A stretch of DNA of 64,000 bases from NCBI GenBank assembly GCA_026388155.1, contig JAPLKI010000014.1, positions 62,001 to 126,000 on the forward strand, written 5' to 3'. The notes beneath the pieces were generated by a model, which was not told where the DNA came from, did no database searches, and worked only from the letters and a program-made list of their open reading frames with translations. The position numbers and the translations under genes are program-made. How positions within the stretch are numbered: the first letter of the stretch is position 1; each line of letters begins with the position of its first letter. The DNA is from Elusimicrobiota bacterium (GTDB lineage: Bacteria > Elusimicrobiota > Elusimicrobia > Elusimicrobiales > UBA9959). Below, one piece after another: positions 33,777 through 49,661 of this stretch.

Positions 33777-36700
33777 ATGGGTTTCAGAAAAACCATTTCC
33801 CTTATCACGGCCCTGTTGCTTTGCCCATTGTTAAATGCCAGCGCGCTTCCAACGCTTGGCACCACCAGGCACAGCCACACCGCCACTCTTCTGCCGGACG
33901 GTAATTTTCTGATGACAGGCGGGGTCACCGGTTCCGGAAACACACCCACAGGCAGCGCGGAAATATATGTTACCTCGGCAAAAGCTTTCCAGGCGATAGG
34001 CGCAATAACGCAGCGTTCCTCGCACACAGCCACCGTTCTCGGAGACGGGCGGGTGCTTGTTGCGGGCGGCTTCAACAATGGCACCCCTTTGAACACAGCA
34101 TACGTCCTGGACAACCGGACCAATGTATGGTCGCCCGTTGGAAGCAACATGTTATATGCGCGCGGCGGACATACGGCAAATCTCATAAACAAAGGCCTTA
34201 ACGCCGGAGATGTGCTTATTTGCGGCGGACAGACTGCCGCCAATTACACATTGGCCGGCGGCATAACCGGCACCTGCGAAATTTTTGACACCAAAGCGAC
34301 CGCAGCGCCGTATTTTAAGCCAGCCGCTTCCATGGCCGCCGCAAGGATGAACCATGCGGCCGCCACCCTCAACTCCGGGAATGTTTTCGTTTCCGGAGGC
34401 ATGCAGTGGGACTCCGTAGCGGCAGACTTCGTCTACCTTCCCGACAACGAAATCTACGATGTCGTGCATGACTCGTGGACCCCCGTCACCGCTCTTCTGC
34501 AGGGCAGGGCGTCTCACACCATAACGCCGCTTGATAACGGCGACGTGATGATAGCCGGCGGCTACAATAAAGCCAACTTTTTCAATCTGGACACGGAGGA
34601 AAAGTGGTATTACGACAATGCGGACGCTGAGGCCGCTCAGAATGCCGGCAGCCACGGCTACCTGGACGCCGCCGAGTTCTTTGATCCCGCGGGAAGGGGC
34701 GTTGTAAACGGAGCTTCGTCTTCGGTAATGCCATACCGCACCAGTTCCCACGCAGCCGCGCTTAGCGCTTCCGGCGAGGTTAAGGTGGACGGCGGCTACG
34801 GAAATATGGTCCCGACATTTTTTGATCCCAACAATCCTGCGTGCTCAGCGGGCTCGTATCTGCGTTTAACACCTACAGCCACCCTCGGCACGGCTTCAAT
34901 AGACTCCGTCAACAGCAGCAAGGTAACATTTCCTCTTGATATACCCCTGACCAGCCCCGTTTCAGGCCGCGTTGTTAATGGCGACATATTTTTTTCCCTC
35001 CCAAAAACCGCGGGGGGGCCGAGTTTTTCCGTAGCCACCTTCCAGGCGATCCTCGGACGCAGCACCACTAGTCTTGCCGGGCAGCCGATAGGCCGGGTTA
35101 CAAGCCCTGATATTAACGCCGGCAAGTTCACAACTGATGTAACTTTGACAAACCCGATCGGCGGCGCCGGCGTGTTCGCTCCTATGACCAACACTCCAAT
35201 TGACATAGCGCACGGTGGAACTTCAGCATTTTCTTTCGCTTCGGTGAAGGCCGGACAAGGCGGCGCTTTGACCGGCACGGTCACACTGAACGTTACATTT
35301 AATGTTTCCTCTAAATACTATAGCGCTATACCCGGAATAACATCTCATATTGCAGGTCAGGCCGTCATAAAAGCCGGAACCATATCAGATCTCAGTTATG
35401 TTTATAACGTTAAACTCAAGAGCGGCACCGGCACAATTCCAGCCGGCACCACGATAGGCGCCGGCGGGGCGGTAACCGTCAGTATCCCCTTCACAGGCAT
35501 TACAGGAACGGTAAACAACCTGACCTCGGATACGAACTACATTCTGCTCGCTTCCTCAGTCAATGCAAGCAATACTCCCGCTTACTCTCCGCCAGGATTA
35601 CATCCAGCCGGGATAACGAACGACGATATTTCCGGTCTTAGTCTGGACATAACCTATACATCCGACTATGTGGACCTGTCTGACGCAAAATACGACATTA
35701 ACACTTCCAGTTTCGTGGTTCGCGAAATGATTTTCTCCACTAACCTGGGGTTCAAGTCAAACGATTTCACCTGGGACACGACAAGCGAAGCCTACGATTC
35801 GGACGCGCCAAGATTCAACCACACATATATGATAACCCCCGCCGGCGATGAACTTATAACCGGCGGAAGGAACTGCGAGGTTCCGACGACCAACTGCGCC
35901 GGAAAGACATTTACCGCAACCACAGCGCAGTCGCTTATTGTGACGATCCCCGGGGCGGGAGTCACAACCACATCAGGCGGCTGGGCCGACGAGAAAGCCC
36001 TCAACGAAAAACGGGCTTATCACACCAGCACCCTGCTTGCGGACGGCTCTATTCTTACCTGCGGCGGCTCGGACGGCACAATCACTTCCGATACCTGCGA
36101 GCTGCGCGACCCCGTCACGGGGAACTGGAACTATGCGGGCAGTATGTTTTCCAGGCGCTCGCGCCACACCGCCACTCTGCTCCCCAACGGCACCGTTTTT
36201 GTGACCGGCGGCACCACGGGCGCCTCCACAGCCGCCGTGGCCACGACTGAAATGTATTACCCGAAGACAAAGAGATGGGTGCGGACGCAAAGCATGTCGG
36301 TTCCTCGTCAGAATCACACCGCCACCCTGATGTCGGACGGCAATGTGCTTGTGACCGGGGGCTCCTCCGATACCGGATACTCGGCCGCGTCAGAAATATT
36401 CATCTCCACCTCCGCGATGTGGCAGACGGTCGGCAGCCTTACAAAGGGCCGCGCGCAGCATACGGCCACCCTGCTGAATAACGGCAATGTGCTTGTGACC
36501 GGCGGCGTCAACGGCGTGGCGTTACGCACGACTGAAATTTTCGATCACGTCCTCAGGACATGGTCCGGCGGGCCGATCATGTACACCCCAAGGTACTCGC
36601 ATACCGCCACACTTTTCAAGGACGGAAAAGTTCTGGTCACCGGAGGCAGCAATGGAAACGGCCCGAGAACAACCACGGAACTGCTGAGTCCTCCATACAC

Positions 36701-39700
36701 CGGCCCCTGGGATCCGACCGCCGACAGGGATATGCTCCACGAGCGCGCGAACCATAGGGCTACATTGCTTACTACAGGGAAAATCCTTTTAACCGGCGGC
36801 GAAACGCTGGGAGCCACCCGCAAGGAAGCTGAACTGTTCAACACGGATTTTGACTTCTGGCAAGGCTATGGCGAGGCCCAGAACAGGGCCAACCATACCG
36901 CCGTTCTGGGCCTCAACGGCTATGTGTTCGTGATCGGCGGCTGGGACGGAACTCAGTATCTGAACGGCGTGCAATCGGTCTATTTCGCGCCCTACCCTGA
37001 CGTATTCGACATGGCCCCAAGAAACAGAAATCCGCAGGTTTCCACGGCCGCGGTCGTGGACTATCTGGACAGGGGCCAGAGGCTGACTCTCCTTAGCGAC
37101 GCGGCCAATTTCCATGGCGTCACTGAAGCGTCGGGAGGCGGAGCGGGCCCGGCCAGCTCCTCTTTCAGCAACCCGCGGGTCTATTTACAGGCCATGGACG
37201 CCCCCAGCGGTTTCCTGATGGACCTGACCACCGGCATTTACAAGATCTTCACTACCCCGACCGAGGTCAACCCTTCCTGGGCGAATACTCTTTCCTCTAT
37301 AACGGTAACTCTGCCGCTCACCGCGGCGGAAATACCTTACGGCTATTATTACGCCAGAGCCGAGGCGAACGGGCAATACTCCAACGGCCGCGTGGTGCAG
37401 ATCACGAAACCGCGGCCCACGGGCCTTGCAGTCAACATTTCCACTTCCGATATCGGCATAAGTTCCATAACCTGGACATGGAACAGCGGCGATATCAAGA
37501 ATAATATTCCTCTCCCGGACGGCTATAATCTTTACTCCTCAACCGACAATCTCTTTATTTCCACGGCGTCTTATGGCGACTTTGCCTCCTATACCCAGAC
37601 CGGCCTTAGCCCGAATACCCAGATTTCGATAAACATAGCCGCTTATAATTTCGGCGGCGACGGCCCGCTCAGCCACAGCGCCACTTTCTACACTCTCGCA
37701 GCGGCCCCAACCGGGCTCACGGTTACGGGGGCAAGTTTTGAAACCGCGGCGCTCACCTGGAACCCGAACGGGAATTCCGCCGCTACGCCGTACGAAATTT
37801 CAGTTTACCAGGAATCGGACGCCGCTACGGAACCCGCGTTCACGTACGCGGCCAACATCTCTACTCCGGTCCCGTTTTCCATTAATTACCTGAGCACTTC
37901 TACCGTTATTAACACCTTATCCCCTAATAAGACCTATTATTTCAGGGTCCGGGCCAAGAACGGCGACGGCTTCCTGACCGCTTACGACAACAAGTTTTAT
38001 ACCCAGACGGTTTCCACTATAACAGTGGGCAACATCGCAAATCTGCAGGGCATCGCTAATAACATGTCGGAGATAACCTGGTCTTGGGACGAGTCCGCCG
38101 GTGCCACCTCATACAGCATTTATGATGTCACCACGGGAACTGACACTGAAAACGCCGCGCTTCTAAGCGACACTGTCTCCGGCAACTACTATACGCAGAA
38201 GAACCTTCTCACCAATACCGCTCACAGTGTCGCCGTAAAGGCGAAAAAGCTGGTTACGTCAACCGCCTGGCTTGACGGCCCCATGTCCTATTCAGGGCGG
38301 GTCTATACCCTCGCCGTCACGCCTACGGCCAACGGAATGAACACTTTCACCGATGTGAGCACCGGAAGCCTTACTGTCAACTGGATAACGAACGGCAATT
38401 CAAGCGCTACCATCTACGACGCGCAACTGTCACTGAACAGCAACTTTGACATCGGCCCCGTAGTAACCACTCAGGTTACAGACTGCATAGCCGGCTGCGC
38501 GGCCACTTTCTCCGGCCTGAAGCCGAATTATAAATATTACGCCGCGGTACTGGCCTACAACGGGGACGGAAAGGTGACCGCTCCGCTGTTCTTTGACCCA
38601 AAATACAAATACACAAGGGCCCAGCCCCCGTCAAATGTCCGGCCGACTTTAATTTCCATGGATGGCGTTGTATTAAGCTGGGATACGGTCGATAACTCTA
38701 CGGAAACAGTTTATGAAGTAAGGTCCTCCACCGCGGGCTTCGGACAATCCGTGACCATAGAAAAGTCCTTTGCCAATTATTATACAGCCTCCTCGCTGCC
38801 TCTTACAGGCCTTTTAACCTCAACCACTTATTATCTCGATGTAGCGGCCTGCAATGGGGAAGGCGTTGGCCTGGGCTGTACCAGCGTCGGAGTAACGGCC
38901 CGCTCCCAATGTGTGCCCAATGCCATAACTCTGCCGGGGCCGGGCGGCGCTCCCTCCGGCTCCATAGCCGGAGTCAGCAGTCCCTCGGCCGCCACTACGA
39001 TTCACGGCTTCCTGCCCACCAGCCGGGAAGTATGGTTGACAGTACCCGCCGCCTCTTTCAAGCAGGCCACCAATATAGCCATTTCGTCGTTTCCGGCCAG
39101 GCCTGATGTAACCGATGCCTGTCACTATCTTCTGGGAGGCTCAAAAGCTCTGGAATTTGCCATTTATTCTCAGGGCAACGCCCAACCGCTGAACCCTGTC
39201 ACTATTAAGCTGACTTACGATCTCCTTACCGATCCCAACGGAGTAGCCGCCATTAATAATAACCGCGCCAGGCTGGTAGTGGCCCGCTATAACCCGGCTA
39301 CGACCCAATGCCTGCCGCTTGAGACACAGATCGACACGGGACTACGGACCATAACCGCCACCTTAAACCATTTCAGCACCTTAGACCCCTTACATGCCAT
39401 AGACCAACCCTCACTTCCGTACCACTTAGGCGGCACCTTTCAGCTGATATTGAGCACCGCCTCCACAGGTTTGAGCAATGTGAGGGTTTTTCCGAATCCT
39501 TTTTATACCAACAGGGGCAACGGGTATGTGACAATAGACAGTATGCCGGCTTCAGCCAAGGTGAACATTTACACTCTTTCCGGCGACAAGATTTGGACGG
39601 GAACAGCCGGAACTACCGGCTTCATTATCTGGAAAGGCGTAAATAAGCACGGAGAACTTGTAGCCAGCGGAATATATCTGGCCGTTATAGACTCAACCGC

Positions 39701-39737
39701 GGGCAAGAAAATATTGAAAATAGCGGTGGAAAGATAG
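33777..39737 (+). CDS. Giant secreted kelch/FN3 surface protein with FlgD/Por-tail-like C-terminus
   Basis: 1986 residues with a signal peptide (to about residue 23). Fourteen kelch-like repeats of the form RHSHTATLLPDGNFLMTGG: six in residues about 28-340 and eight in about 679-1058, enough for two propellers. Between them (340-679) is a beta-rich Gly/Thr-rich insert. Five fibronectin-III-like domains follow (about 1213-1700, openings such as PTGLAVNIS, APTGLTVTG, QPPSNVRP), then a domain of about 170 residues, and a final FlgD-like/type-A sorting-like domain (NVRVFPNPFYTN, VNIYTLSGDKIWTGTAGTTG, GELVASGIYLAVI). The tail is of the kind recognised by Por/type-9-like export or serving as an anchor. 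Adhesion or glycan binding is inference. Followed by a PorV-like gene. Confidence 0.88.
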   Translation: MGFRKTISLITALLLCPLLNASALPTLGTTRHSHTATLLPDGNFLMTGGVTGSGNTPTGSAEIYVTSAKAFQAIGAITQRSSHTATVLGDGRVLVAGGFNNGTPLNTAYVLDNRTNVWSPVGSNMLYARGGHTANLINKGLNAGDVLICGGQTAANYTLAGGITGTCEIFDTKATAAPYFKPAASMAAARMNHAAATLNSGNVFVSGGMQWDSVAADFVYLPDNEIYDVVHDSWTPVTALLQGRASHTITPLDNGDVMIAGGYNKANFFNLDTEEKWYYDNADAEAAQNAGSHGYLDAAEFFDPAGRGVVNGASSSVMPYRTSSHAAALSASGEVKVDGGYGNMVPTFFDPNNPACSAGSYLRLTPTATLGTASIDSVNSSKVTFPLDIPLTSPVSGRVVNGDIFFSLPKTAGGPSFSVATFQAILGRSTTSLAGQPIGRVTSPDINAGKFTTDVTLTNPIGGAGVFAPMTNTPIDIAHGGTSAFSFASVKAGQGGALTGTVTLNVTFNVSSKYYSAIPGITSHIAGQAVIKAGTISDLSYVYNVKLKSGTGTIPAGTTIGAGGAVTVSIPFTGITGTVNNLTSDTNYILLASSVNASNTPAYSPPGLHPAGITNDDISGLSLDITYTSDYVDLSDAKYDINTSSFVVREMIFSTNLGFKSNDFTWDTTSEAYDSDAPRFNHTYMITPAGDELITGGRNCEVPTTNCAGKTFTATTAQSLIVTIPGAGVTTTSGGWADEKALNEKRAYHTSTLLADGSILTCGGSDGTITSDTCELRDPVTGNWNYAGSMFSRRSRHTATLLPNGTVFVTGGTTGASTAAVATTEMYYPKTKRWVRTQSMSVPRQNHTATLMSDGNVLVTGGSSDTGYSAASEIFISTSAMWQTVGSLTKGRAQHTATLLNNGNVLVTGGVNGVALRTTEIFDHVLRTWSGGPIMYTPRYSHTATLFKDGKVLVTGGSNGNGPRTTTELLSPPYTGPWDPTADRDMLHERANHRATLLTTGKILLTGGETLGATRKEAELFNTDFDFWQGYGEAQNRANHTAVLGLNGYVFVIGGWDGTQYLNGVQSVYFAPYPDVFDMAPRNRNPQVSTAAVVDYLDRGQRLTLLSDAANFHGVTEASGGGAGPASSSFSNPRVYLQAMDAPSGFLMDLTTGIYKIFTTPTEVNPSWANTLSSITVTLPLTAAEIPYGYYYARAEANGQYSNGRVVQITKPRPTGLAVNISTSDIGISSITWTWNSGDIKNNIPLPDGYNLYSSTDNLFISTASYGDFASYTQTGLSPNTQISINIAAYNFGGDGPLSHSATFYTLAAAPTGLTVTGASFETAALTWNPNGNSAATPYEISVYQESDAATEPAFTYAANISTPVPFSINYLSTSTVINTLSPNKTYYFRVRAKNGDGFLTAYDNKFYTQTVSTITVGNIANLQGIANNMSEITWSWDESAGATSYSIYDVTTGTDTENAALLSDTVSGNYYTQKNLLTNTAHSVAVKAKKLVTSTAWLDGPMSYSGRVYTLAVTPTANGMNTFTDVSTGSLTVNWITNGNSSATIYDAQLSLNSNFDIGPVVTTQVTDCIAGCAATFSGLKPNYKYYAAVLAYNGDGKVTAPLFFDPKYKYTRAQPPSNVRPTLISMDGVVLSWDTVDNSTETVYEVRSSTAGFGQSVTIEKSFANYYTASSLPLTGLLTSTTYYLDVAACNGEGVGLGCTSVGVTARSQCVPNAITLPGPGGAPSGSIAGVSSPSAATTIHGFLPTSREVWLTVPAASFKQATNIAISSFPARPDVTDACHYLLGGSKALEFAIYSQGNAQPLNPVTIKLTYDLLTDPNGVAAINNNRARLVVARYNPATTQCLPLETQIDTGLRTITATLNHFSTLDPLHAIDQPSLPYHLGGTFQLILSTASTGLSNVRVFPNPFYTNRGNGYVTIDSMPASAKVNIYTLSGDKIWTGTAGTTGFIIWKGVNKHGELVASGIYLAVIDSTAGKKILKIAVER

Positions 39738-40921: not shown

Positions 40922-41440
40922 TTAATCAATTCTGCCGATAAGGCGCAGTATAGCATCCAGGATCGTCAGCGGATGGGGGGGACAGCCGGGTATGTGGGCG
41001 GCGACATGCACTATCCTGCCTATATCGCCGGTGCAGTAATAAGAATCCTTGAAAGCGCCGCCGTTCAGGGCGCAGTCTCCGCAGGTTATCACGAATTTAG
41101 GCCCGGGCATGGCCTCATAGGTGCGCTTAAGCGCCAGCGCCATGTTCCTCGCCGCCGGCCCGGTGACAAGCAGGACGTCGGCGTGCCGCGGGGAGGCCAC
41201 AAAATCAATGCCGAAGCGCTGAATATCGTATATCGGGTTCGTCGCGGAAATTATCTCGGATTCGCACGCTCCGCAGGAGCCCGTGTCAACTTCCCTGATA
41301 TGCAGCGAACGGCCGAATTTCTTTATGATCAGCGAGCGCAGCTCTTCACCGGTTTCTTCATACCGAGGGGAGGCGGAAACCTTTTCAATTTTTTTTGAAA
41401 GGATGCCTTTTTTAAGGCTGTTCCACAAAATGCGCATCAT
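40922..41440 (-). CDS. Hydrogenase-4/NuoB-like small subunit (proximal Fe-S protein)
   Basis: 172 residues. NuoB/HyfI-type protein holding one [4Fe-4S] cluster. Cysteines that fit the four ligands are present: GSCGACESEI (C56, C59), ITCGDCALNGG (C123, with C120 also near) and IPGCPPHP (C153). The proximal electron-transfer site is therefore intact. The first ATG (41440) overlaps the stop of the large-subunit gene; a second ATG follows at once. Last gene of the six-gene leftward operon. In Hyf-type complexes this subunit passes electrons between the ferredoxin-like arm and the catalytic site; no ferredoxin arm (HyfA/HyfH) is encoded here. Confidence 0.9.
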   Translation of the reverse strand: MMRILWNSLKKGILSKKIEKVSASPRYEETGEELRSLIIKKFGRSLHIREVDTGSCGACESEIISATNPIYDIQRFGIDFVASPRHADVLLVTGPAARNMALALKRTYEAMPGPKFVITCGDCALNGGAFKDSYYCTGDIGRIVHVAAHIPGCPPHPLTILDAILRLIGRID

Positions 41441-43020
41441 AGGTCGTTACCCGGGTACGACAGGTTGAAACTTTTATTGCACAGCGGAAAATCGGGGATG
41501 ATATTACCGGGCACCGCCTGGGCGAGCCCTTCCCAGTTCAGGAAAGAAGGATCCGTTATTTTGCACCGTTCCACCAGAGCGTTTTCTCCGATCCGCACCC
41601 AATAGAGAACGGGGCCCCGCCAGCCTTCGGCGTAGCCGAGCGCGCAACCGCTTGCGAAGTCCCCTGCCGCGGGCTCCGGACCGCCGCCTTTTTTAAGCAT
41701 GCCTGAAAATTCCTTTATAAGCCTTACGGATTCCTCAAATTCAAATACCCGCACATTCAGCCGGGCAAGAACATCGCCTTTCTCCTGCTTCGCGGGTTTG
41801 AACCCCGCGCCTTTGTGGAGAGGCGAAAAATCAGCCCGGAGATCCGCCGCTATCCCGGAAGCCCGCGCGGCAGGGCCGGAAACGCCCAGTTCCAAAGCGG
41901 TTTTATGCGGCAATATGCCTGTTTCCTCAACCCGGTCCATAAAAGACACGCTGCCGTAAAGCATCTCTTTTAAGGCGCGGAAATCCTCCTCAGCCGACGC
42001 GAGAGCGGCGCCGATGGCTTCCAGTTCGGTCGCCGTGAGAAGCTTTGAAACTCCGCCTATGCGGTTGAAATTTTTCAGATACCTCGACCCGGTGAGCTTT
42101 TCATTAAGCGCCAGTATGTTTTCTTTGATCACCGAGGCGCAGGCCGCCGGGAAGCTAAATCCCACATCGGTGGCTATTCCGCCGGCGTCCGCGGCGTGAT
42201 TATACAGCCTCTCCAGTTCAAGCAGTATAGCCCTGGTCAGCCGGTGTTCATCCGGCGTTTTCACGCCGCGTATCTTCTCAACGGCCCCGGCGAAAGCCAG
42301 GCTGTGCGCGAAAGCCGCTTCGCCGTCCGCCAGCTCCGAAAAAGCCAGGGCGGCGTCCGCGGTTTTGCCTTCAAAAAGCTTTTCCACTCCCCGGTGAGTG
42401 AAGCCGAGCCGTATCTCAAGGTTCAAAACAGGCTCGCCCGCCGCGCTGAACCTGAAATGCCCCGGCGCTATTATTCCCGCGTGCACGGGGCCGACCGGCA
42501 CTTCAAAAACCCCGTCGCCCTCAACGCGCCGGAACGCGTAGCTTTGGCCGGTGTCTCCTGATTTTTCCGGCGGCTTAAAATCTTTTCTCAGGGGATAAAA
42601 CCCTTCCGGCCATACTTCCGTATGCAGGCGCAGCCGCCTTGGATCAAAAGCTCCCCGCCGCTTTATGCCGAACATTTCGCTTGTTTCCCGTTCAAAAAGC
42701 GAAGCCGAAAAGATCTCGTTCTCCAGCGAATCGAATTCCGGGGACCGGCCGTCAAGCCTGACCGACACCATAAGCCACCTGCCTTCCGCGCGGGAGGCAA
42801 AAACGCAGCGAACAAAAAAGCAGTTCTGCGCGGCGCGCGCATCTTCGGCGAACAGCGTGGAAAGGGGCGCGCCGGTTTTCTGGTGCGCGAAAAGACAGAC
42901 CTTTTTAAAATCCTCCGGCCTGACCTCAAGGTGCGCTTCTTCGAGCGCGTTCCATTTTATCGAAACAGGAGTTACCCCTTCCCGGGCAGAAAGTTCCTTT
43001 AAAATATCTTCTATTTTCAC
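41437..43020 (-). CDS. Hydrogenase-related large subunit (HyfG/NuoCD-like) lacking all Ni-Fe cysteines
   Basis: 527 residues. N-terminal NuoC-like domain (about 1-165; SASLFERETSEMFGIKRRGA) fused to a NuoD/hydrogenase-large-subunit domain (PVGPVHAGIIAPGHFRFSAA near 178, EIRLGFTHRGVEKLFEG near 203). Where hydrogenases have RxCGxC before FAHS, this protein has ELADGEAAFAHS (about 228-239); where they have DPCxxC after a DxPLxxxSF block, it has NLSYPG. All four metal-binding cysteines are therefore replaced and no Ni-Fe centre can form. This defines the energy-converting-hydrogenase-related (Ehr) type. The reaction is unknown; coupling to ion transport is inferred from the membrane partners. Overlaps the small-subunit gene by four bases. 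Confidence 0.92.
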   Translation of the reverse strand: MKIEDILKELSAREGVTPVSIKWNALEEAHLEVRPEDFKKVCLFAHQKTGAPLSTLFAEDARAAQNCFFVRCVFASRAEGRWLMVSVRLDGRSPEFDSLENEIFSASLFERETSEMFGIKRRGAFDPRRLRLHTEVWPEGFYPLRKDFKPPEKSGDTGQSYAFRRVEGDGVFEVPVGPVHAGIIAPGHFRFSAAGEPVLNLEIRLGFTHRGVEKLFEGKTADAALAFSELADGEAAFAHSLAFAGAVEKIRGVKTPDEHRLTRAILLELERLYNHAADAGGIATDVGFSFPAACASVIKENILALNEKLTGSRYLKNFNRIGGVSKLLTATELEAIGAALASAEEDFRALKEMLYGSVSFMDRVEETGILPHKTALELGVSGPAARASGIAADLRADFSPLHKGAGFKPAKQEKGDVLARLNVRVFEFEESVRLIKEFSGMLKKGGGPEPAAGDFASGCALGYAEGWRGPVLYWVRIGENALVERCKITDPSFLNWEGLAQAVPGNIIPDFPLCNKSFNLSYPGNDL

Positions 43021-43021
43021 G

Positions 43022-44473
43022 TCATACTCCTGTTAAAACGCTCACGGCCGCGCGCAGCAGTTTCGCCATAAAAGCCGGGACGCCCAGACCCAGGGCGAGC
43101 ATAAAACCGCCCAGCAGCATGAACGCGGCTTTTGTGGCCATAGGCTCCGCCCCGGGGCCCATCTCTTTTGGTTTTTTCTCAAAAAGAACTCCGCTGAAAT
43201 GATGCACCAGCGCCCCGAAGATCACGGCGAGAAAGAACATAAAAAGACCTGAGACCAGGTACCTGCCCTGCACGAACGCCCCTGAAAGGATGGTCAGTTC
43301 GCTCATGAAAATTGAAAAAGGCGGAAGGCCGCCGAGCGCGAAAAACCCGAACAGCAGAAATATCCCCGTAAAAGGCATGGCCGCGATAACGCCCCTGATC
43401 TTGCGCATATCGTGCGTTCCGTATTTTTTGCCCACGCTGCCGGCCGCGAAGAACATCAGCGCCTTGGTGACGGCGTGATTAAAAACATGGTAGAGCGCGC
43501 CAAACGTGCCCGCCGCGCCGCCTATGCCTATGCCTACGAAGATTATCCCTATATGCTCAACGCTGTGATAAGCGAGCAGCCGTTTGATATCTTTCTGGAC
43601 CAGGATAAAAGCAGCCGAAACGCCCAGGGAAAGCATGCCGAATAAAAGCGCCAGGTTGGCGGCGTAGGAGACGCCGACGGCCTTGTTGGTAATGACCATA
43701 AACCTTAAAATGGCGTATGCCGAGGTTTTAAGCAGCACGCACGACAGCAGGGCGCTTATCGGCGTAAGCGCCTGGCTGTGCGCGTCCGGCAGCCAGGTGT
43801 GCATGGGAGCCAGCCCCGCCTTGGTGCCGTATCCCACCAGAATGAAAATGAAAGCTGTTTTGACCACCCGCGGGTCGAGGCTGCCCGCGTGCGCCAGCAT
43901 ATCTTCCCAGTTAAGGTTATTTACTCCGGCGGCGGTGTTCAGCGCGTAATAAAAGAGAATGACGCCGACAAGCGCCAGCACTATGCCCACCGAGCAGATT
44001 ATAACGTATTTCCATGCCGCTTCTATGGCTTTTTTAGTGGTGTGAAAACCCACCAGGAACGCCGAGGCGAGCGTGGTCATTTCAACGCAGACCCACATAA
44101 GTCCGAGGTTTTCCACCAGCGTGACCAGGAACATGCTCAATGTGAAAATATTGAAAAGGGAATAATAAAGCCTTGCCTTGCTCTCGCCCATCAGGCCTTC
44201 GCTTACTTCGCCCGCTATATAGCCCTTTGAGTAAAGGGCCGCGGCCAGGTTTACTACGGCGATCGTGAAGACAAAAAAAAGGCTTAAGGCGTCGGCGCAG
44301 AAAAAACCGTCAAGCCTGCCGGGCGCTCCGAAACAAATTATCTGGACAAGCACAAGGACGAATGCCGTCAGGTGTCCGGCGATGTTTACGGCCCCCATGG
44401 CCGCCTGGCGGCGCGTAAGCCAGGGAAGAACCGCGCAGCAGGCATTTATCAGCAATACGAGATATATCAGCAT
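43022..44473 (-). CDS. HyfF-like antiporter-type membrane subunit
   Basis: 483 residues, about 14 membrane segments, of the NuoL/M/N-MrpD family. Proton-path landmarks are kept: a Glu in segment 5 (MWVCVEMTTLASAFLVG near 128-145), Lys in GYGTKAGLAPMHTWLPDAHS near 225, and VQKDIKRLLAYHSVEHIGII near 292 with a Lys/His pattern typical of pumping subunits. Transports H+ or Na+ as part of the complex. Stops one base before the large-subunit start. The longer upstream gap contains a repeat. Confidence 0.92.
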   Translation of the reverse strand: MLIYLVLLINACCAVLPWLTRRQAAMGAVNIAGHLTAFVLVLVQIICFGAPGRLDGFFCADALSLFFVFTIAVVNLAAALYSKGYIAGEVSEGLMGESKARLYYSLFNIFTLSMFLVTLVENLGLMWVCVEMTTLASAFLVGFHTTKKAIEAAWKYVIICSVGIVLALVGVILFYYALNTAAGVNNLNWEDMLAHAGSLDPRVVKTAFIFILVGYGTKAGLAPMHTWLPDAHSQALTPISALLSCVLLKTSAYAILRFMVITNKAVGVSYAANLALLFGMLSLGVSAAFILVQKDIKRLLAYHSVEHIGIIFVGIGIGGAAGTFGALYHVFNHAVTKALMFFAAGSVGKKYGTHDMRKIRGVIAAMPFTGIFLLFGFFALGGLPPFSIFMSELTILSGAFVQGRYLVSGLFMFFLAVIFGALVHHFSGVLFEKKPKEMGPGAEPMATKAAFMLLGGFMLALGLGVPAFMAKLLRAAVSVLTGV

Positions 44474-44489
44474 GTTTCGTTATGACTAA

Positions 44490-44562
44490 GACAGACAGAA
44501 TCCAGTAGTCAGAAGCCAGTAGCCAGAATTCTGACTACTGACTCCTGAATTCTGACTTCTTG
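44490..44562. repeat. CAGTAGTCAGAA-type mosaic repeat inside the hyf-like operon
   Basis: Left words CCAGTAGTCAGAAGCCAGTA and GCCAGAATTC are inverted as GAATTCTGACTACTGACTCC and TGAATTCTGACTTCTTG. Same construction as the GCCATA and TTACCGGT families but different words. It separates the HyfE-like and HyfF-like genes, which elsewhere in this operon are nearly contiguous with their neighbours. Confidence 0.8.
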
Positions 44563-44566
44563 TCCT

Positions 44567-45205
44567 TCACCCCTTAAGCCTTGTCAGCCGGCTCACGTCT
44601 ATATGGGTGAACAGGCCTTTTATCCGGTAAACGAAAACTCCCGCTACTACCACAAGCACGAACAGGTCAAAAAATACGGCTATTTCGACTATAAACGGCA
44701 TGCCACTTGAAATAGACGAAGCCAGCATAAACACCCCGTTTTCCATCACCAAAAGCCCTATTATCTGCGCCAGGGCTTTCAGGCGGAAAACCATAAGGAA
44801 AAAACCGGTAAAAACCGCCAGCAGAGAAATTGAAAAATTCAGTCTGGCGTCGCCGGACATTCCGCCTATAAACGAATCGTAAAAACCGTAAATAAGCCAG
44901 CAGAAAACTATTACCGCAATAACCGACAGCGGCGGGTTCAGAACAAGGCCCATGTTCTCTCCTGAACTCATTTCGGCCGTTATTTTATTAAGATGCCTGG
45001 GTATCAGCCATACTTTAATGAAAAGTATCATGGCTGTTATGATCCATAGTTCCCGATCGCCGTAGCGCAGCGCGAAAGAAGCGGTTGAAAGCGCCAGCAT
45101 AAGCGACTGAAATCTGAAGGCGCGTATAAGCGCCCCGAGGCGCTTGGCTCCGGCCATCAGGAATATAGAAAACAAAAGCCCTACGGCTAATATATGCGAC
45201 CACAT
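44567..45205 (-). CDS. HyfE-like membrane subunit
   Basis: 212 residues from the ATG at 45205, one base after the upstream stop; a longer frame to 45253 overlaps the previous gene and is not needed. About six membrane segments. N-terminal AVGLLFSIFLMAGAKRLGAL, central IITAMILFIKVWLIPRHLNK and IGLLVMENGVFMLASSISSG match HyfE/NuoK-fused proteins, in which the NuoK-like part carries a conserved Glu (MENG). It forms part of the proton path of hydrogenase-4-type complexes. Confidence 0.88.
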   Translation of the reverse strand: MWSHILAVGLLFSIFLMAGAKRLGALIRAFRFQSLMLALSTASFALRYGDRELWIITAMILFIKVWLIPRHLNKITAEMSSGENMGLVLNPPLSVIAVIVFCWLIYGFYDSFIGGMSGDARLNFSISLLAVFTGFFLMVFRLKALAQIIGLLVMENGVFMLASSISSGMPFIVEIAVFFDLFVLVVVAGVFVYRIKGLFTHIDVSRLTRLKG

Positions 45206-45206
45206 A

Positions 45207-46130
45207 TCAGTATCCACCCGCCGCGAGAACAGCGGAAGCAAGCGCGGCCACAAAAGCGAACATAAGCAGATCCGCCACCCGGAACAGTCTCATTTTTGCC
45301 ATTGAAACTTCCGTAAACGCCATAATGACGGCAAGCGCGAACACTTTAACGGCAAAAGCCGCAGCCGCGGCCGCCGCAAGCGCCGCGCCGCACCCCGCCG
45401 TCCGTGTCAGGGGAAAAATAACAGCGGCTATCAGCGAAAACCAGACCATCTGCCTTATATGGGAGGCGTATTCTATCAGAGCGAGCGCGCGGCCGGAATA
45501 TTCCAGAGCCATTGCCTCGTGCACCATGGTAAGCTCGAGGTGAGTTTCCTGATTGTCCACGGGTATCCTGGAGGTCTCGGCTATCGCCACGATAAAAAGC
45601 GAAAAGCCGGCGGTCAGCGAAGAGGCGCTGAAAGCCCCGTTGCCGGTTATGGCGGCAAAGGAGGTGGAACCGGCGTTTAACGCCAGGACGAAAAAGGAAA
45701 CCAGCGCCGCCGGCTCGGCCAGGCTCGAGATGAACATCTCGCGGGAAGAGCCCATGCCGCCGAAAGCGCCGGCCGCGTCCATGCCGGCCAGCGCCATAAA
45801 GAACCTGCCCAGCGCCAGTATGAACATAACGGCCACAATATCGCCCATGCCGCCAGCGGCGGCGGCGCCGCCAAAAAGCGGTACCAGCAGCAAAGCCGCC
45901 GCCGATGAGGAAATTACCGCATACGGGGTAATTTGAAACAGCCACGAAGCGTGTTCCGAAACGACCTCATCGTTTTTCCCCAGAAGCTTGAAAAAATTAT
46001 TATAGGGCTGCAATACGGGCGCGCCGCGCCTCATCCTGACGGTGTTTTTTATTTTTGTGATAAGTCCGCTGACTAAAGGCGCGACGGCGATGATCAGCAG
46101 AAACTGCATAATGCCCGGCGCTTGTTCCAT
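45207..46130 (-). CDS. HyfC/NuoH-like membrane anchor subunit
   Basis: 307 residues, about eight membrane segments. NuoH-family landmarks: KIKNTVRMRRGAPVLQPYNN near 27-46 (the loop that contacts the peripheral arm), SSLAEPAALVSFFVLAL near 135, ETSRIPVDNQETHLELTMVH near 184-203 with the conserved acidic cluster. Links the electron-transfer subunits to the membrane ion pumps. Separated by one base from the gene upstream and two from the HyfE-like start. Confidence 0.93.
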   Translation of the reverse strand: MEQAPGIMQFLLIIAVAPLVSGLITKIKNTVRMRRGAPVLQPYNNFFKLLGKNDEVVSEHASWLFQITPYAVISSSAAALLLVPLFGGAAAAGGMGDIVAVMFILALGRFFMALAGMDAAGAFGGMGSSREMFISSLAEPAALVSFFVLALNAGSTSFAAITGNGAFSASSLTAGFSLFIVAIAETSRIPVDNQETHLELTMVHEAMALEYSGRALALIEYASHIRQMVWFSLIAAVIFPLTRTAGCGAALAAAAAAAFAVKVFALAVIMAFTEVSMAKMRLFRVADLLMFAFVAALASAVLAAGGY

Positions 46131-46131
46131 A

Positions 46132-47973
46132 TTAAAATTGTCCCCTGAAGATCAGCAGAAGAATTATGGTCGCGAAGATATAGGAAAGATACAGATGAAT
46201 GCTGCCCGGCTGCAGCTTCCTGACCGTTTTTGCCAGCCGGAAAGAGGCCGACACGGCCGGTTCATAAAAAAATGTCCTGAAAAACGGCGTGGTGTGGGTT
46301 TCATACCTGAAATATTTCAGATGATAGCCGCCATGGGTGGCTTTTTCAATTTTTCTGTAAGGCCTGAGGAAAAAGCTGAAAAAGATCCTGAACGGCTTTG
46401 AAAAAGCCGTCGCAGTATATTCAGTGCGGGAATCAAGCGCGTAGTAGCCGCAGCCCCAGGTCGGACCGGCGGAAAAACGCCGTTTCCCGTAAATGATCCT
46501 GACCCCGAAGAACACCGTAAGTCCAAAAAAAGCGAGCGCCGCCGGCACAAACCAGGCTGAAACGGCGCCGGCGTTCGCCAGACCGTTGGTTATGCCGTAA
46601 TTCAGCACCGAGAATTTCATGCCTTGCGTAGGAACGCCAAGCGTTGCGCCCGCTACCCCGGCCAGAACCCGCAGGATCTGAGGAGCGGACAGCCCGAAGA
46701 TCAGGGTAAGCGCCGCCAAAAAAAGCATGGGAGCCGTCATTGACAGAGGCGATTCTTTGGCCTCCGAAGCCTTCGCGCTCCTGGGGGCGGCAAGGAAGGT
46801 AACGGAAAAGGCCTTCACAAAACAGGCCGCGGCAAGCCCGCTTGTAAGCGCAAGCGCCGAGGCCGCCGCCATCCAGAACATTACGCCGTTGCCGGCGCTC
46901 TTAAGAGCTCCGGCGAAAATCGCCTGGAAGGTGAGCCATTCGCTTATAAAACCGTTCAACGGCGGAAGCGCGGAAATAGCCATGGACCCGGCGAGGAAAG
47001 CGAAAGCGGTATACGGCATCAGCTTAATAAGCCCGCCCATTTTTTCCATATTGCGGGTGCCGGTCGCCTTATAAACGGATCCCGCGCTCAAAAACAGGAG
47101 TCCCTTGAAAACAGCGTGGTTCACCAGGTGATAGAGCCCCGCGGCCATGGAAAAAACCGCAAGCGCCGGCTGGTCCATGGTCATAAAGATCATGGAACCG
47201 CCCAAGCCCAGCAGAATGATGCCTATATTTTCAACGCTGTGGAAAGCCAGCAGTTTTTTAATATCGTGTTCCATCAGGGCGTAAATAACGCCCGCCAGGC
47301 AGGAAACGGCGGCAAATACCATCACCATCCTGCCCTCCCACGGATGGCCTGTCCCCAGTGTAAAAACCGCGAATCTTATAATGCCGTAGATCCCCAGTTT
47401 TATCATCACGCCGGACATGATGCTTGAGATGTGGCTGGGCGCCTGGGGATGCGCCATCGGCAGCCAGATATGCAGCGGCACTATACCCGCCTTGGCGCCG
47501 AAACCGAAAAAGAGCAGCAGAAAAACCGCGCTCTTAACGCCGTCGGGGATAAGATACGCCGCCTCTTTGACCGCCAGGGCGTCGAACGAATGCGTATAGC
47601 GGTACATTATAAGGAAAGCCGCGGTAATAAGGGCGGTGCCGAAATGCGTCATTACGATATAAAAAGTGCCGGCCCTTATTGATTTCTCATGCTCCGAGTC
47701 AAAAATAACCAGGAAATACGAAACCAGGGACATTATTTCCCAGAATATCAGGAATAAAACAAGATTTGACACGCTGACAACCGCCAGCATCGATAAGACG
47801 AACAGGGCGAGCAGGAGCCAGGCGGTCTTTATTTTGCCTGCGGAGTAGTCTCCTTTCAGATACCCGGCGGAATAAACGGCCGCGGGCGCAGATATCAAAA
47901 GGATGACGAAGACAAAAAAAAGGGACAGCGGATCGTTCAGGAACGCGAAGCTGCCGGTTATGGAAGGGATCAT
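46132..47973 (-). CDS. HyfB-like antiporter-type membrane subunit
   Basis: 613 residues, about 16 membrane segments. NuoL/HyfB-like: FLIFWEIMSLVSYFLVIFDS (Glu near 79), GFGAKAGIVPLHIWLPMAHP near 184 (Lys), MEHDIKKLLAFHSVENIGII near 252, and YHLVNHAVFKGLLFLSAGSV near 290. A C-terminal extension includes RRFSAGPTWGCGYYALDSRT, a block also found in hydrogenase-4 subunit B proteins. First gene of the operon; the order B-C-E-F-G-I matches Hyf operons apart from the missing ferredoxin and HyfD genes. The initiating ATG is at 47973. Confidence 0.93.
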   Translation of the reverse strand: MIPSITGSFAFLNDPLSLFFVFVILLISAPAAVYSAGYLKGDYSAGKIKTAWLLLALFVLSMLAVVSVSNLVLFLIFWEIMSLVSYFLVIFDSEHEKSIRAGTFYIVMTHFGTALITAAFLIMYRYTHSFDALAVKEAAYLIPDGVKSAVFLLLFFGFGAKAGIVPLHIWLPMAHPQAPSHISSIMSGVMIKLGIYGIIRFAVFTLGTGHPWEGRMVMVFAAVSCLAGVIYALMEHDIKKLLAFHSVENIGIILLGLGGSMIFMTMDQPALAVFSMAAGLYHLVNHAVFKGLLFLSAGSVYKATGTRNMEKMGGLIKLMPYTAFAFLAGSMAISALPPLNGFISEWLTFQAIFAGALKSAGNGVMFWMAAASALALTSGLAAACFVKAFSVTFLAAPRSAKASEAKESPLSMTAPMLFLAALTLIFGLSAPQILRVLAGVAGATLGVPTQGMKFSVLNYGITNGLANAGAVSAWFVPAALAFFGLTVFFGVRIIYGKRRFSAGPTWGCGYYALDSRTEYTATAFSKPFRIFFSFFLRPYRKIEKATHGGYHLKYFRYETHTTPFFRTFFYEPAVSASFRLAKTVRKLQPGSIHLYLSYIFATIILLLIFRGQF

Positions 47974-48244: not shown

Positions 48245-48273
48245 TTGACATCTAAGGCTGAATTTTATAGATT
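48245..48273 (+). promoter_or_regulatory. Candidate promoter for the polyamine genes
   Basis: Perfect -35 TTGACA at 48245-48250 and a TAGATT -10 at 48268-48273, with 17-base spacing. It predicts a start near 48280, about 37 bases before speD. Confidence 0.5.
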
Positions 48274-48316
48274 CTATGGTCTTAAAAACCGAGTATTTAG
48301 AGGCTGGGACGGCGGT

Positions 48317-48670
48317 ATGAAAGCTCTAGGGCAACATCTGGTGATTGAACTTTACGGCTGCGACAAGAAGGCCATCTCAAAGGTGGACACCGTGCAGGCC
48401 ATAATGCTTGAGGCGGCCAAAGCCGCCAACGCCACTATTATAGACTCTATTTTCCACCATTTCGCGCCATACGGCGTTTCCGGAGTGGTGGTGATCGCCG
48501 AATCGCATTTTGCCATTCATACCTGGCCCGAGCATAACTACGCCTCCGTGGACCTTTTTACCTGCGGAGCCAAAATAATACCCTGGGAAGCCTTCAAGGT
48601 TTTAAAGAAACGTTTCAAGACCACCCACTTCAGCGCCATGAAGATGGAGCGGGGACTGTTGCCGAAATAG
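48317..48670 (+). CDS. speD: S-adenosylmethionine decarboxylase proenzyme
   Basis: 117 residues from the ATG at 48317, matching the short bacterial/archaeal class (SpeH type). It is made as a proenzyme that cleaves itself before a serine, here in AESHFAIHTWPEH (Ser about 65), to make the pyruvoyl cofactor; HTWPE and ASVDLFTCG are the other signature blocks. It supplies decarboxylated SAM for aminopropyl transfer. The frame is open 24 codons upstream but without a ribosome site and overlapping a good promoter. A spermidine-synthase-like gene follows after 10 bases. Confidence 0.95.
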   Translation: MKALGQHLVIELYGCDKKAISKVDTVQAIMLEAAKAANATIIDSIFHHFAPYGVSGVVVIAESHFAIHTWPEHNYASVDLFTCGAKIIPWEAFKVLKKRFKTTHFSAMKMERGLLPK

Positions 48671-48680
48671 GCCGCATAAG

Positions 48681-49661
48681 ATGAAGAAAGCGAAACCCGA
48701 CTTTGACTGGATAAAAACGGAAAAATCCATTTTGCCGCGGGGGCGGTGGTTCGTTGAATATTTCACCAAAGGAGAATTACACGCTCACAAGGCGGAGGCC
48801 ATACTTGAAACCTCGGAAACTTATTTCCAAAAAGCCACGCTTATAAGAACGCCCTCATTCGGGAAAATGCTGGTTATTGACCATGAAACCCAGTCAAGCC
48901 AGTATGACGAGGCTTTCTACCACGAATCGCTGGTCTGCCCGGCGCTGCTGGCCCATCGCTCCCCAAAAACGGCTCTCATACTTGGCGGGGGGGAAGGCGC
49001 CACGGCAAGAGAACTACTTAACTACGCCGGAATTGAAAAAGCCGTAATGGCCGATATTGACCACTCTATACTCGGCTTCGCCGCCAAACACCTCCAGACC
49101 TGGCACCGGGGAGCCTTCAAGGATCCAAGGCTGACACTGCTGGTTCAGGACGCCAAAAAATATGTGGAACGCACAGAGCTTAAGTTTGACCTGGTCTATT
49201 CCGATCTGCCGAGCCCTATAGAAAAGGGGCCAGCCTGCCAGCTCTACACTCTTGAGTTCTACCGCTCGCTTAAGAGGATAATGAACCCGGACGCCATTTT
49301 CACGGTCCAGGCGGGCCCCGGAACCCCGCTTCAGTTCGAACTGCATGCGGCGCTTCACAGGACGCTCGGAAAGCTCTTCAGATTCGTGGGCAGCTACACC
49401 GCGTTCATACCCTCATACGATATGCCCTGGACCTGGCTATATTGCACCGACTCCCCGGCGGCCGCTCCGCAGAACCTTAAAGCGGATAAACTGGATAAGG
49501 CGATCAGTTCAAGATTGAGGCACCCCCTTAAATACAGCGACGGCCTGACCATAACCGGCGCTTTCATTCTGCCTAAATATTACCGGGACAAAATAAAAGC
49601 CTGGAAGCGTATCGTGACTGCGCGCAGGCCGGTGTTTTTCACTACTTCGAAGTATTGTTGA
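48681..49661 (+). CDS. speE: Spermidine synthase family aminopropyltransferase
   Basis: 326 residues. N-terminal beta-domain with FGKMLVIDHETQSSQYDEAF and HESLV near 60-95, then the Rossmann core: ALILGGGEGATARELL near 96-111 (decarboxylated-SAM loop), MADIDHSILGFA near 119, and VQDAKKYVERTELKFDLVYS near 150-169. It makes spermidine or a related polyamine from the product of the preceding speD gene. The C-terminal region after 220 is longer than in the short SpeE type and resembles thermospermine/spermine-synthase-like members, so product specificity is open. Confidence 0.92.
   Translation: MKKAKPDFDWIKTEKSILPRGRWFVEYFTKGELHAHKAEAILETSETYFQKATLIRTPSFGKMLVIDHETQSSQYDEAFYHESLVCPALLAHRSPKTALILGGGEGATARELLNYAGIEKAVMADIDHSILGFAAKHLQTWHRGAFKDPRLTLLVQDAKKYVERTELKFDLVYSDLPSPIEKGPACQLYTLEFYRSLKRIMNPDAIFTVQAGPGTPLQFELHAALHRTLGKLFRFVGSYTAFIPSYDMPWTWLYCTDSPAAAPQNLKADKLDKAISSRLRHPLKYSDGLTITGAFILPKYYRDKIKAWKRIVTARRPVFFTTSKYC

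Follow-up and report, generated by a model that had tools for sequence, protein, structure and literature searches.

An energy-converting hydrogenase-related (Ehr) operon without Ni-Fe ligands in an Elusimicrobiota genome that apparently lacks formate dehydrogenase and quinone synthesis

Introduction

What does a membrane complex built like a group 4 hydrogenase do when its large subunit has lost every ligand of the Ni-Fe site? Group 4 complexes link redox chemistry close to their proximal cluster to antiporter-like subunits. A survey of groundwater Elusimicrobia by Meheust in 2020 may, reportedly, also describe Ehr complexes. The question is raised here by a six-gene operon of an Elusimicrobiota bacterium (genome 3.36 Mb, 96.9% complete), located in the 64,000-nucleotide stretch of contig C14 that we analysed (the window; gene positions are counted within it unless a locus is named). 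Ehr complexes without Ni-Fe ligands have been reported in Riflemargulisbacteria, Saganbacteria and Melainabacteria (PMC6349859), in Geobacter as GSU0739-45 (PMC7894505), and in Nitrospira (PMC10284858; PMC12342949), and these reports describe the function as unknown or only suspected.

Results

A six-gene Ehr operon

The window contains an intact operon of six genes, B-C-E-F-L-S, at 40922-47973 (minus strand):

46132..47973, minus strand: subunit B, HyfB/NuoL-like antiporter subunit, 613 aa
45207..46130, minus strand: subunit C, HyfC/NuoH-like membrane anchor, 307 aa (Pfam NADHdh, 6e-33)
44567..45253, minus strand: subunit E, HyfE-like membrane subunit, 228 aa from a TTG start (NCBIfam hydrogenase 4 membrane subunit, 1.9e-16)
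43022..44473, minus strand: subunit F, HyfF/NuoN-M-like antiporter subunit, 483 aa (NCBIfam hydrogenase 4 subunit F, 8e-134)
41437..43020, minus strand: subunit L, fused NuoC-NuoD-type large subunit without Ni-Fe ligands, 527 aa from a GTG start
40922..41440, minus strand: subunit S, NuoB/MbhJ-type small subunit, 172 aa (Pfam Oxidored_q6, 1.6e-27)

Antiporter-like, HyfE-like and NuoH-like membrane subunits are thus all encoded in one operon. Subunit B is 40% identical to E. coli HyfB and scored 607 bits against the NCBIfam model of hydrogenase 4 subunit B, under the cut-off of 667; F is 40% identical to HyfF and C 32% identical to HyfC. Subunit E, for which an alternative ATG start is possible at 45202, is conserved in relatives. 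The original prediction took the antiporter-type subunits to be functional, and the TM7 lysines are indeed present in B (Lys161, K161; motif KAGIVPLHIWLPMAH) and in F (Lys218, K218). At full-length loci, the six-gene order is kept across Elusimicrobiota, Omnitrophota, Margulisbacteria and others.

E. coli hydrogenase 3 of formate hydrogenlyase (HycE, 7z0s) and hydrogenase 4 (Hyf) have homologous B, C, E, F, G and I subunits and the same NuoC-D fusion. Unlike these two, the window operon has no Ni-Fe cysteines, no HyfA, HyfD or HyfH, no formate dehydrogenase and no maturation tail on its large subunit. The operon almost certainly encodes a complete Ehr complex, an assignment supported by subunit composition, motifs and the tree described below, which bear out the Ehr relationship proposed from the first reading of the sequence.

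The former Ni-Fe site of the large subunit

Subunit L matches the Pfam families Complex1_49kDa (2e-33) and 30kDa (5e-17), and its best solved relative by phmmer is HycE, subunit 5 of E. coli formate hydrogenlyase (PDB 7z0s_E, 3.6e-59). In the alignment, the HycE stretch DRVCGICGFAHS pairs with ELADGEAAFAHS in L, so that the RVCGIC site of HycE corresponds to LADGEA, and the DPCYSC site to NLSYPG (SLDPCYSC in HycE, SFNLSYPG in L). All four Ni-Fe cysteines are therefore replaced, as had been predicted, and none is shifted. Homologs read [SAC]GD or [SD]GE at the first site and DFP[LVI][CI]NKSF[DN]LSY[SPAC]GxD[LR] at the second, where the protein stops; G233, N515, K516, S517, F518, S521, Y522, D526 and L527 are invariant in an alignment of 26 sequences. 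A few homologs read CGD in the first motif and so keep its first cysteine, an intermediate state.

L ends at the DPCxxC equivalent, where the cleavable tail of a hydrogenase would begin, while HycE, HyfG and the host's own hydrogenase extend past DPCxxC. Neither the four CxxC/DPCxxC cysteines nor the cleavable tail that mark a group 4 [NiFe] hydrogenase are thus found in L. Shifted cysteines were ruled out by the alignment and by independent genomes, and an assembly error by the same intact gene in independent genomes at 79-86% identity. The new conserved motifs (SGD, and DFPLCNKSFxLSYxGxDL at the end of the protein), together with dN/dS of about 0.1-0.2, rule out both decay and assembly error. 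That the operon encodes a cryptic hydrogenase, or a decayed or misassembled one, is extremely improbable: although the complex descends from a hydrogenase-like family and HypD is present in the host, in dozens of genomes conserved residues stand in place of all the Ni-Fe ligands, the reading frames are intact and under constraint (dN/dS 0.1-0.2), and the protein has no cleavable C-terminal tail.

Two further sets of residues at the former active site were compared. In Nqo4 of complex I, His38 and Tyr87 bind the quinone headgroup (PMC7684303); the equivalents in L are Ile184 and Gly233. In MbhL, Glu21 is needed for proton reduction (PMC7684303). A glutamate is found at this position in E. coli Hyc and Hyf, in the [NiFe] hydrogenase of the host and in all inspected Ehr outside the window sub-clade, whereas the window sub-clade has Ala or Gly, with the exceptions of L026 (Pro) and L027 (Glu). 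Loss of the pocket glutamate is a trait of the window sub-clade, and adds to the cysteine loss noticed at the outset.

An AlphaFold model of L built from the 26 sequences had a pTM of 0.84 and matched 7z0s_E best among PDB entries (TM 0.85). Confidence in the monomer was low at residues 153-210 (a loop) and 506-527 (the tail), which are the parts that line the active site, and we therefore make no claim on the shape of the cavity.

The small subunit

The cluster cysteines of S were predicted to be kept, and C56, C59, C123 and C153 align with those of MbhJ in the pattern CxxC..C..C. MbhJ (6cfw_J) is the best PDB match of S (1.3e-33), and the two align without a gap over 131 residues. The cysteine spacing is of the MBH type and differs from the CC of complex I and from the shortened motif of MBS. 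Across the small subunits aligned from the window clade and neighbouring clades, the four cysteines do not vary, and S is predicted to carry one [4Fe-4S] cluster.

Could the complex reduce sulphane or polysulphide at the proximal cluster, as MBS of Pyrococcus does? Like the window complex, MBS is derived from group 4 and has lost hydrogenase activity, the quinone residues and MbhL Glu21 (PMC7684303). The reactivity of MBS is ascribed to a cluster motif three residues shorter, which leaves one iron without a cysteine (PMC7684303), and S does not have the shortened motif, but aligns gap-free to MbhJ with all four cysteines kept. MBS also retains two of the four Ni-Fe cysteines, of which L retains none, and its three-cysteine catalytic cluster, MbsN clusters and full Mrp module are not seen in the window operon. 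An MBS-like reaction is thus quite improbable.

No Fer4 domain was found in S, in other small subunits of the window sub-clade or in the inspected proteobacterial plasmid forms. A sister clade of Elusimicrobiota Ehr, whose L is 34-40% identical, has longer small subunits. In many of these (L081, L086-L095, L099-L101), an N-terminal Fer4 motif or domain is fused to the NuoB-like domain; the remaining ones have an extension with a weak or no Fer4 match. The fused Fer4 points to electron exchange at that face of the small subunit.

Phylogeny, distribution and selection

An IQ-TREE phylogeny of the D domain was built from 72 Ehr-type rows, HycE/HyfG, NuoCD and two [NiFe] group 4 sequences. The Ehr clade was separated from the included hydrogenases and NuoCD with support of 100/100, in a midpoint-rooted tree in which L030 and NuoCD have long branches. 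The window sub-clade (94/96) includes margulisbacterial and saganbacterial sequences, among them L018 and L022 at 52-56% identity; the grouping is with homologs from the phyla of published Ehr, rather than with the sequences of PMC6349859 or Geobacter themselves. Like the window complex, the Ehr of PMC6349859 is group-4-like and has no Ni-Fe ligands. The novelty implied by the original prediction is thereby reduced, because the same lineage has already been reported in Margulisbacteria and Saganbacteria. Compared by description rather than by sequence, GSU0739-45 of Geobacter sulfurreducens and the Nitrospirales Ehr share the NuoL-like and HyfE-like subunits, EhrL, EhrS and the absence of a Ni-Fe motif.

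Intact homologs were found in Elusimicrobiota (79-86% identity) and in Omnitrophota, Firestonebacteria, Margulisbacteria and Saganbacteria (51-57%). Within the phylum, 88 of 199 genomes carry relatives if hydrogenases are included in the count, and homologs are also located on plasmids or megaplasmids of Cupriavidus, Burkholderia, Paraburkholderia, Rhizobium, Azospirillum, Rhodococcus and Meiothermus. One 18.9 kb contig (L081, genome G165) carries two diverged Ehr operons in tandem.

Against the relatives L004-L007, dN/dS was 0.11-0.18 in L and 0.10-0.13 in S; the remaining subunits gave 0.09-0.15, with the spurious partial B matches in L006 and L007 left out. The operon is under purifying selection.

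Partners encoded in the host genome

On contig C14, about 62 kb from the Ehr operon, lies a separate group 4 [NiFe] hydrogenase operon (L109, G000:C14:30000-49500). It has intact RVCGIC and DPCMSC motifs, three antiporter subunits and a Fer4 protein, and is apparently functional. This second, real hydrogenase accounts for HypD in the host. Since a HypD match is missing in 12 of 30 Ehr-bearing genomes, Ehr does not need the Ni-Fe cofactor.

A cytoplasmic formate dehydrogenase with NuoE/F-like subunits that feeds Ehr has been proposed for Margulisbacteria and Saganbacteria (PMC6349859), and Geobacter grown on formate contains more of the Ehr subunits (PMC7894505). The whole host genome (96.9% complete) has no match to PF00384, the molybdopterin oxidoreductase family of the formate dehydrogenase type, in agreement with the original prediction, which had seen no formate dehydrogenase and no HyfA, HyfH or HyfD. 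PF00384 is also missing in 10 others of the 30 Ehr-bearing genomes, and 8 of these 11 are about 97% complete or more. No fdhA was found among the examined operon neighbours, and the host's single match to PF01512, the NuoF family, is RnfC/PrdC-like. For this host, in contrast to the published Margulisbacteria and Saganbacteria, a formate dehydrogenase partner is very improbable.

Quinone reduction in the former Ni-Fe cavity would make the complex an equivalent of complex I without its NADH module. L resembles NuoD and is likewise tail-less, its fold matches complex I, the two complexes share the core of NuoB/C/D/H and antiporter subunits, and some Ehr hosts have MqnA. The window complex, however, lacks the NADH module, NuoI and the quinone-binding His and Tyr, whose replacements Ile184 and Gly233 are conserved, and has CxxC in place of the CC cluster motif. 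Neither MqnA nor MenD was found in the host, which has one UbiA-family gene; including the host, MenD was absent in 13 of 13 Ehr genomes and MqnA in 23 of 30. Two genomes with Ehr of the window sub-clade (G041 and G078, both 97% complete) have no PF00384, MqnA, MenD or UbiA-family prenyltransferase. Absence from a draft genome is no proof of absence, but the pattern recurs over several genomes. With molybdopterin oxidoreductase, MenD and MqnA all missing from the host, both a formate dehydrogenase partner and a quinone substrate are poorly supported here, and we give quinone reduction little probability.

The host has neither an RnfD/NqrB-type protein nor an [FeFe] hydrogenase, and its sole PF01512 match is a stand-alone RnfC/PrdC-like protein. 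The gene (L110:9064-10410, G000:C25) lies beside an aminotransferase gene in this genome without an RnfD match, and is conserved in many Ehr-bearing Elusimicrobiota. Of 22 Ehr-bearing genomes, 13 have close homologs (52-100% identity), as against none of 10 Ehr-negative control genomes; four of the 22, those with an RnfD-type protein, have RnfC-like matches at 24-35%, and five have neither form. This co-occurrence is confounded by phylogeny, because nearly every control is a reduced genome from a single family. We regard the RnfC-like protein as a candidate electron donor.

Genes next to the operon

No partner gene recurs next to the operon in the window sub-clade, and no donor or acceptor gene is a consistent neighbour there. 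GreA, an ABC ATPase, DMT, EF-hand, a flavin reductase and an NfnA/B-like pair are neighbours in single or few loci. Judged by eye only, the 1986-aa product of window positions 33777-39737 (plus strand) has many kelch-like 'HTATLLxDGxVLVTGG' repeats and a FlgD-like sorting-type C-terminal segment.

Divergently transcribed just upstream of B are genes for an S-adenosylmethionine decarboxylase (SpeD, 48245-48670, plus strand) and a spermidine-synthase-like protein (SpeE, 48681-49661, plus strand). SpeE-like genes also flank Ehr in 7 of 7 Burkholderiales plasmid loci (L066, L067, L069, L104, L105, L106 and L108). We rejected a polyamine link as a probable coincidence, because the SpeE subfamilies differ and relatives from the same genus as the window have no such gene near Ehr.

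In the sister clade, Ehr operons start with or contain a gene for a PTS EIIA-type protein that has an HTH domain (L086, L088, L089, L091, L092, L094, L098, L099 and L101), and in Burkholderiales Ehr has HPr-like genes on its flanks. PTS and Ehr may be linked through regulation.

Discussion

The published reading of Ehr, an ion-translocating redox complex, is still the best one for the window operon. A redox-silent cation or proton antiporter, in which L and S form a structural or regulatory cap, would also fit several observations: Mrp-like antiporters operate with no redox arm, a dedicated electron wire is missing from the operon, and EIIA-like and HPr-like genes adjoin Ehr in other clades. 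However, invariant cluster cysteines would be unexpected without electron flow, and the former active-site residues are invariant too; we regard redox silence as distinctly unlikely.

As the likeliest reading, we tentatively propose that the window Ehr is a redox-driven ion pump with a soluble low-potential donor at S and a small acceptor in the former Ni-Fe cavity, a mechanism that, taken as a whole, we hold to be possible but somewhat short of probable. The membrane arm (two antiporter-like subunits, the HyfE-like subunit and the NuoH-like anchor) would carry the L/S pair. A soluble partner would deliver electrons to the exposed face of S, or take them up there. As donor, either ferredoxin or an RnfC/PrdC-like flavo-iron-sulphur protein whose gene lies elsewhere may dock on S where MbhN or HycF would sit, and reduce the S cluster. 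Electrons would then pass to the small acceptor in the former Ni-Fe cavity, lined by the SGD and NKSFxLSYxGxDL residues, and, as MBH and complex I do, the complex would relay a conformational change to its antiporter subunits and so pump a proton or sodium.

Counted for this mechanism are the operon order, the supported Ehr clade and window sub-clade, the conserved replaced sites, the low dN/dS, the cluster ligands, the TM7 lysines, Fer4 in the sister clade, Ehr in genomes with no HypD match and the RnfC co-occurrence. Counted against it are the single cluster, which leaves the path to a distant donor unproven, the absence of the sister clade's Fer4 arm from the window sub-clade, the want of a consistent donor or acceptor neighbour, the confounding of the RnfC pattern and the five of 22 Ehr genomes that have neither RnfC form. 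The original prediction had named either a quinone-like substrate or a soluble donor docking at the small subunit. The first is weakened by the absence of the Nqo4 His38/Tyr87 equivalents, and of MenD and MqnA from the host, and the second is now the more plausible, with indirect support from related small subunits fused to Fer4.

A bolder reading places the window complex in an Ehr lineage of its own, found in anaerobic candidate phyla, that would function with neither Ni-Fe nor formate dehydrogenase, quinone or the conserved pocket glutamate. It would couple oxidation of ferredoxin or of the RnfC/PrdC-like protein to reduction of a small acceptor new for complex I relatives, in a pocket formed by the NKSFxLSYxGxDL tail. 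We consider this unlikely.

Among the widespread Ehr complexes, that of the window is ordinary for its family, and it is the host that is without the usually proposed partners, formate dehydrogenase and quinone synthesis. The genome is a useful natural test, because purifying selection maintains the operon while formate dehydrogenase and a quinone pool are apparently missing. The loss of the pocket glutamate and the missing fused ferredoxin domain in the window sub-clade offer concrete residues and domains to probe, and the apparent absence of the two leading partners narrows the possible roles of Ehr.
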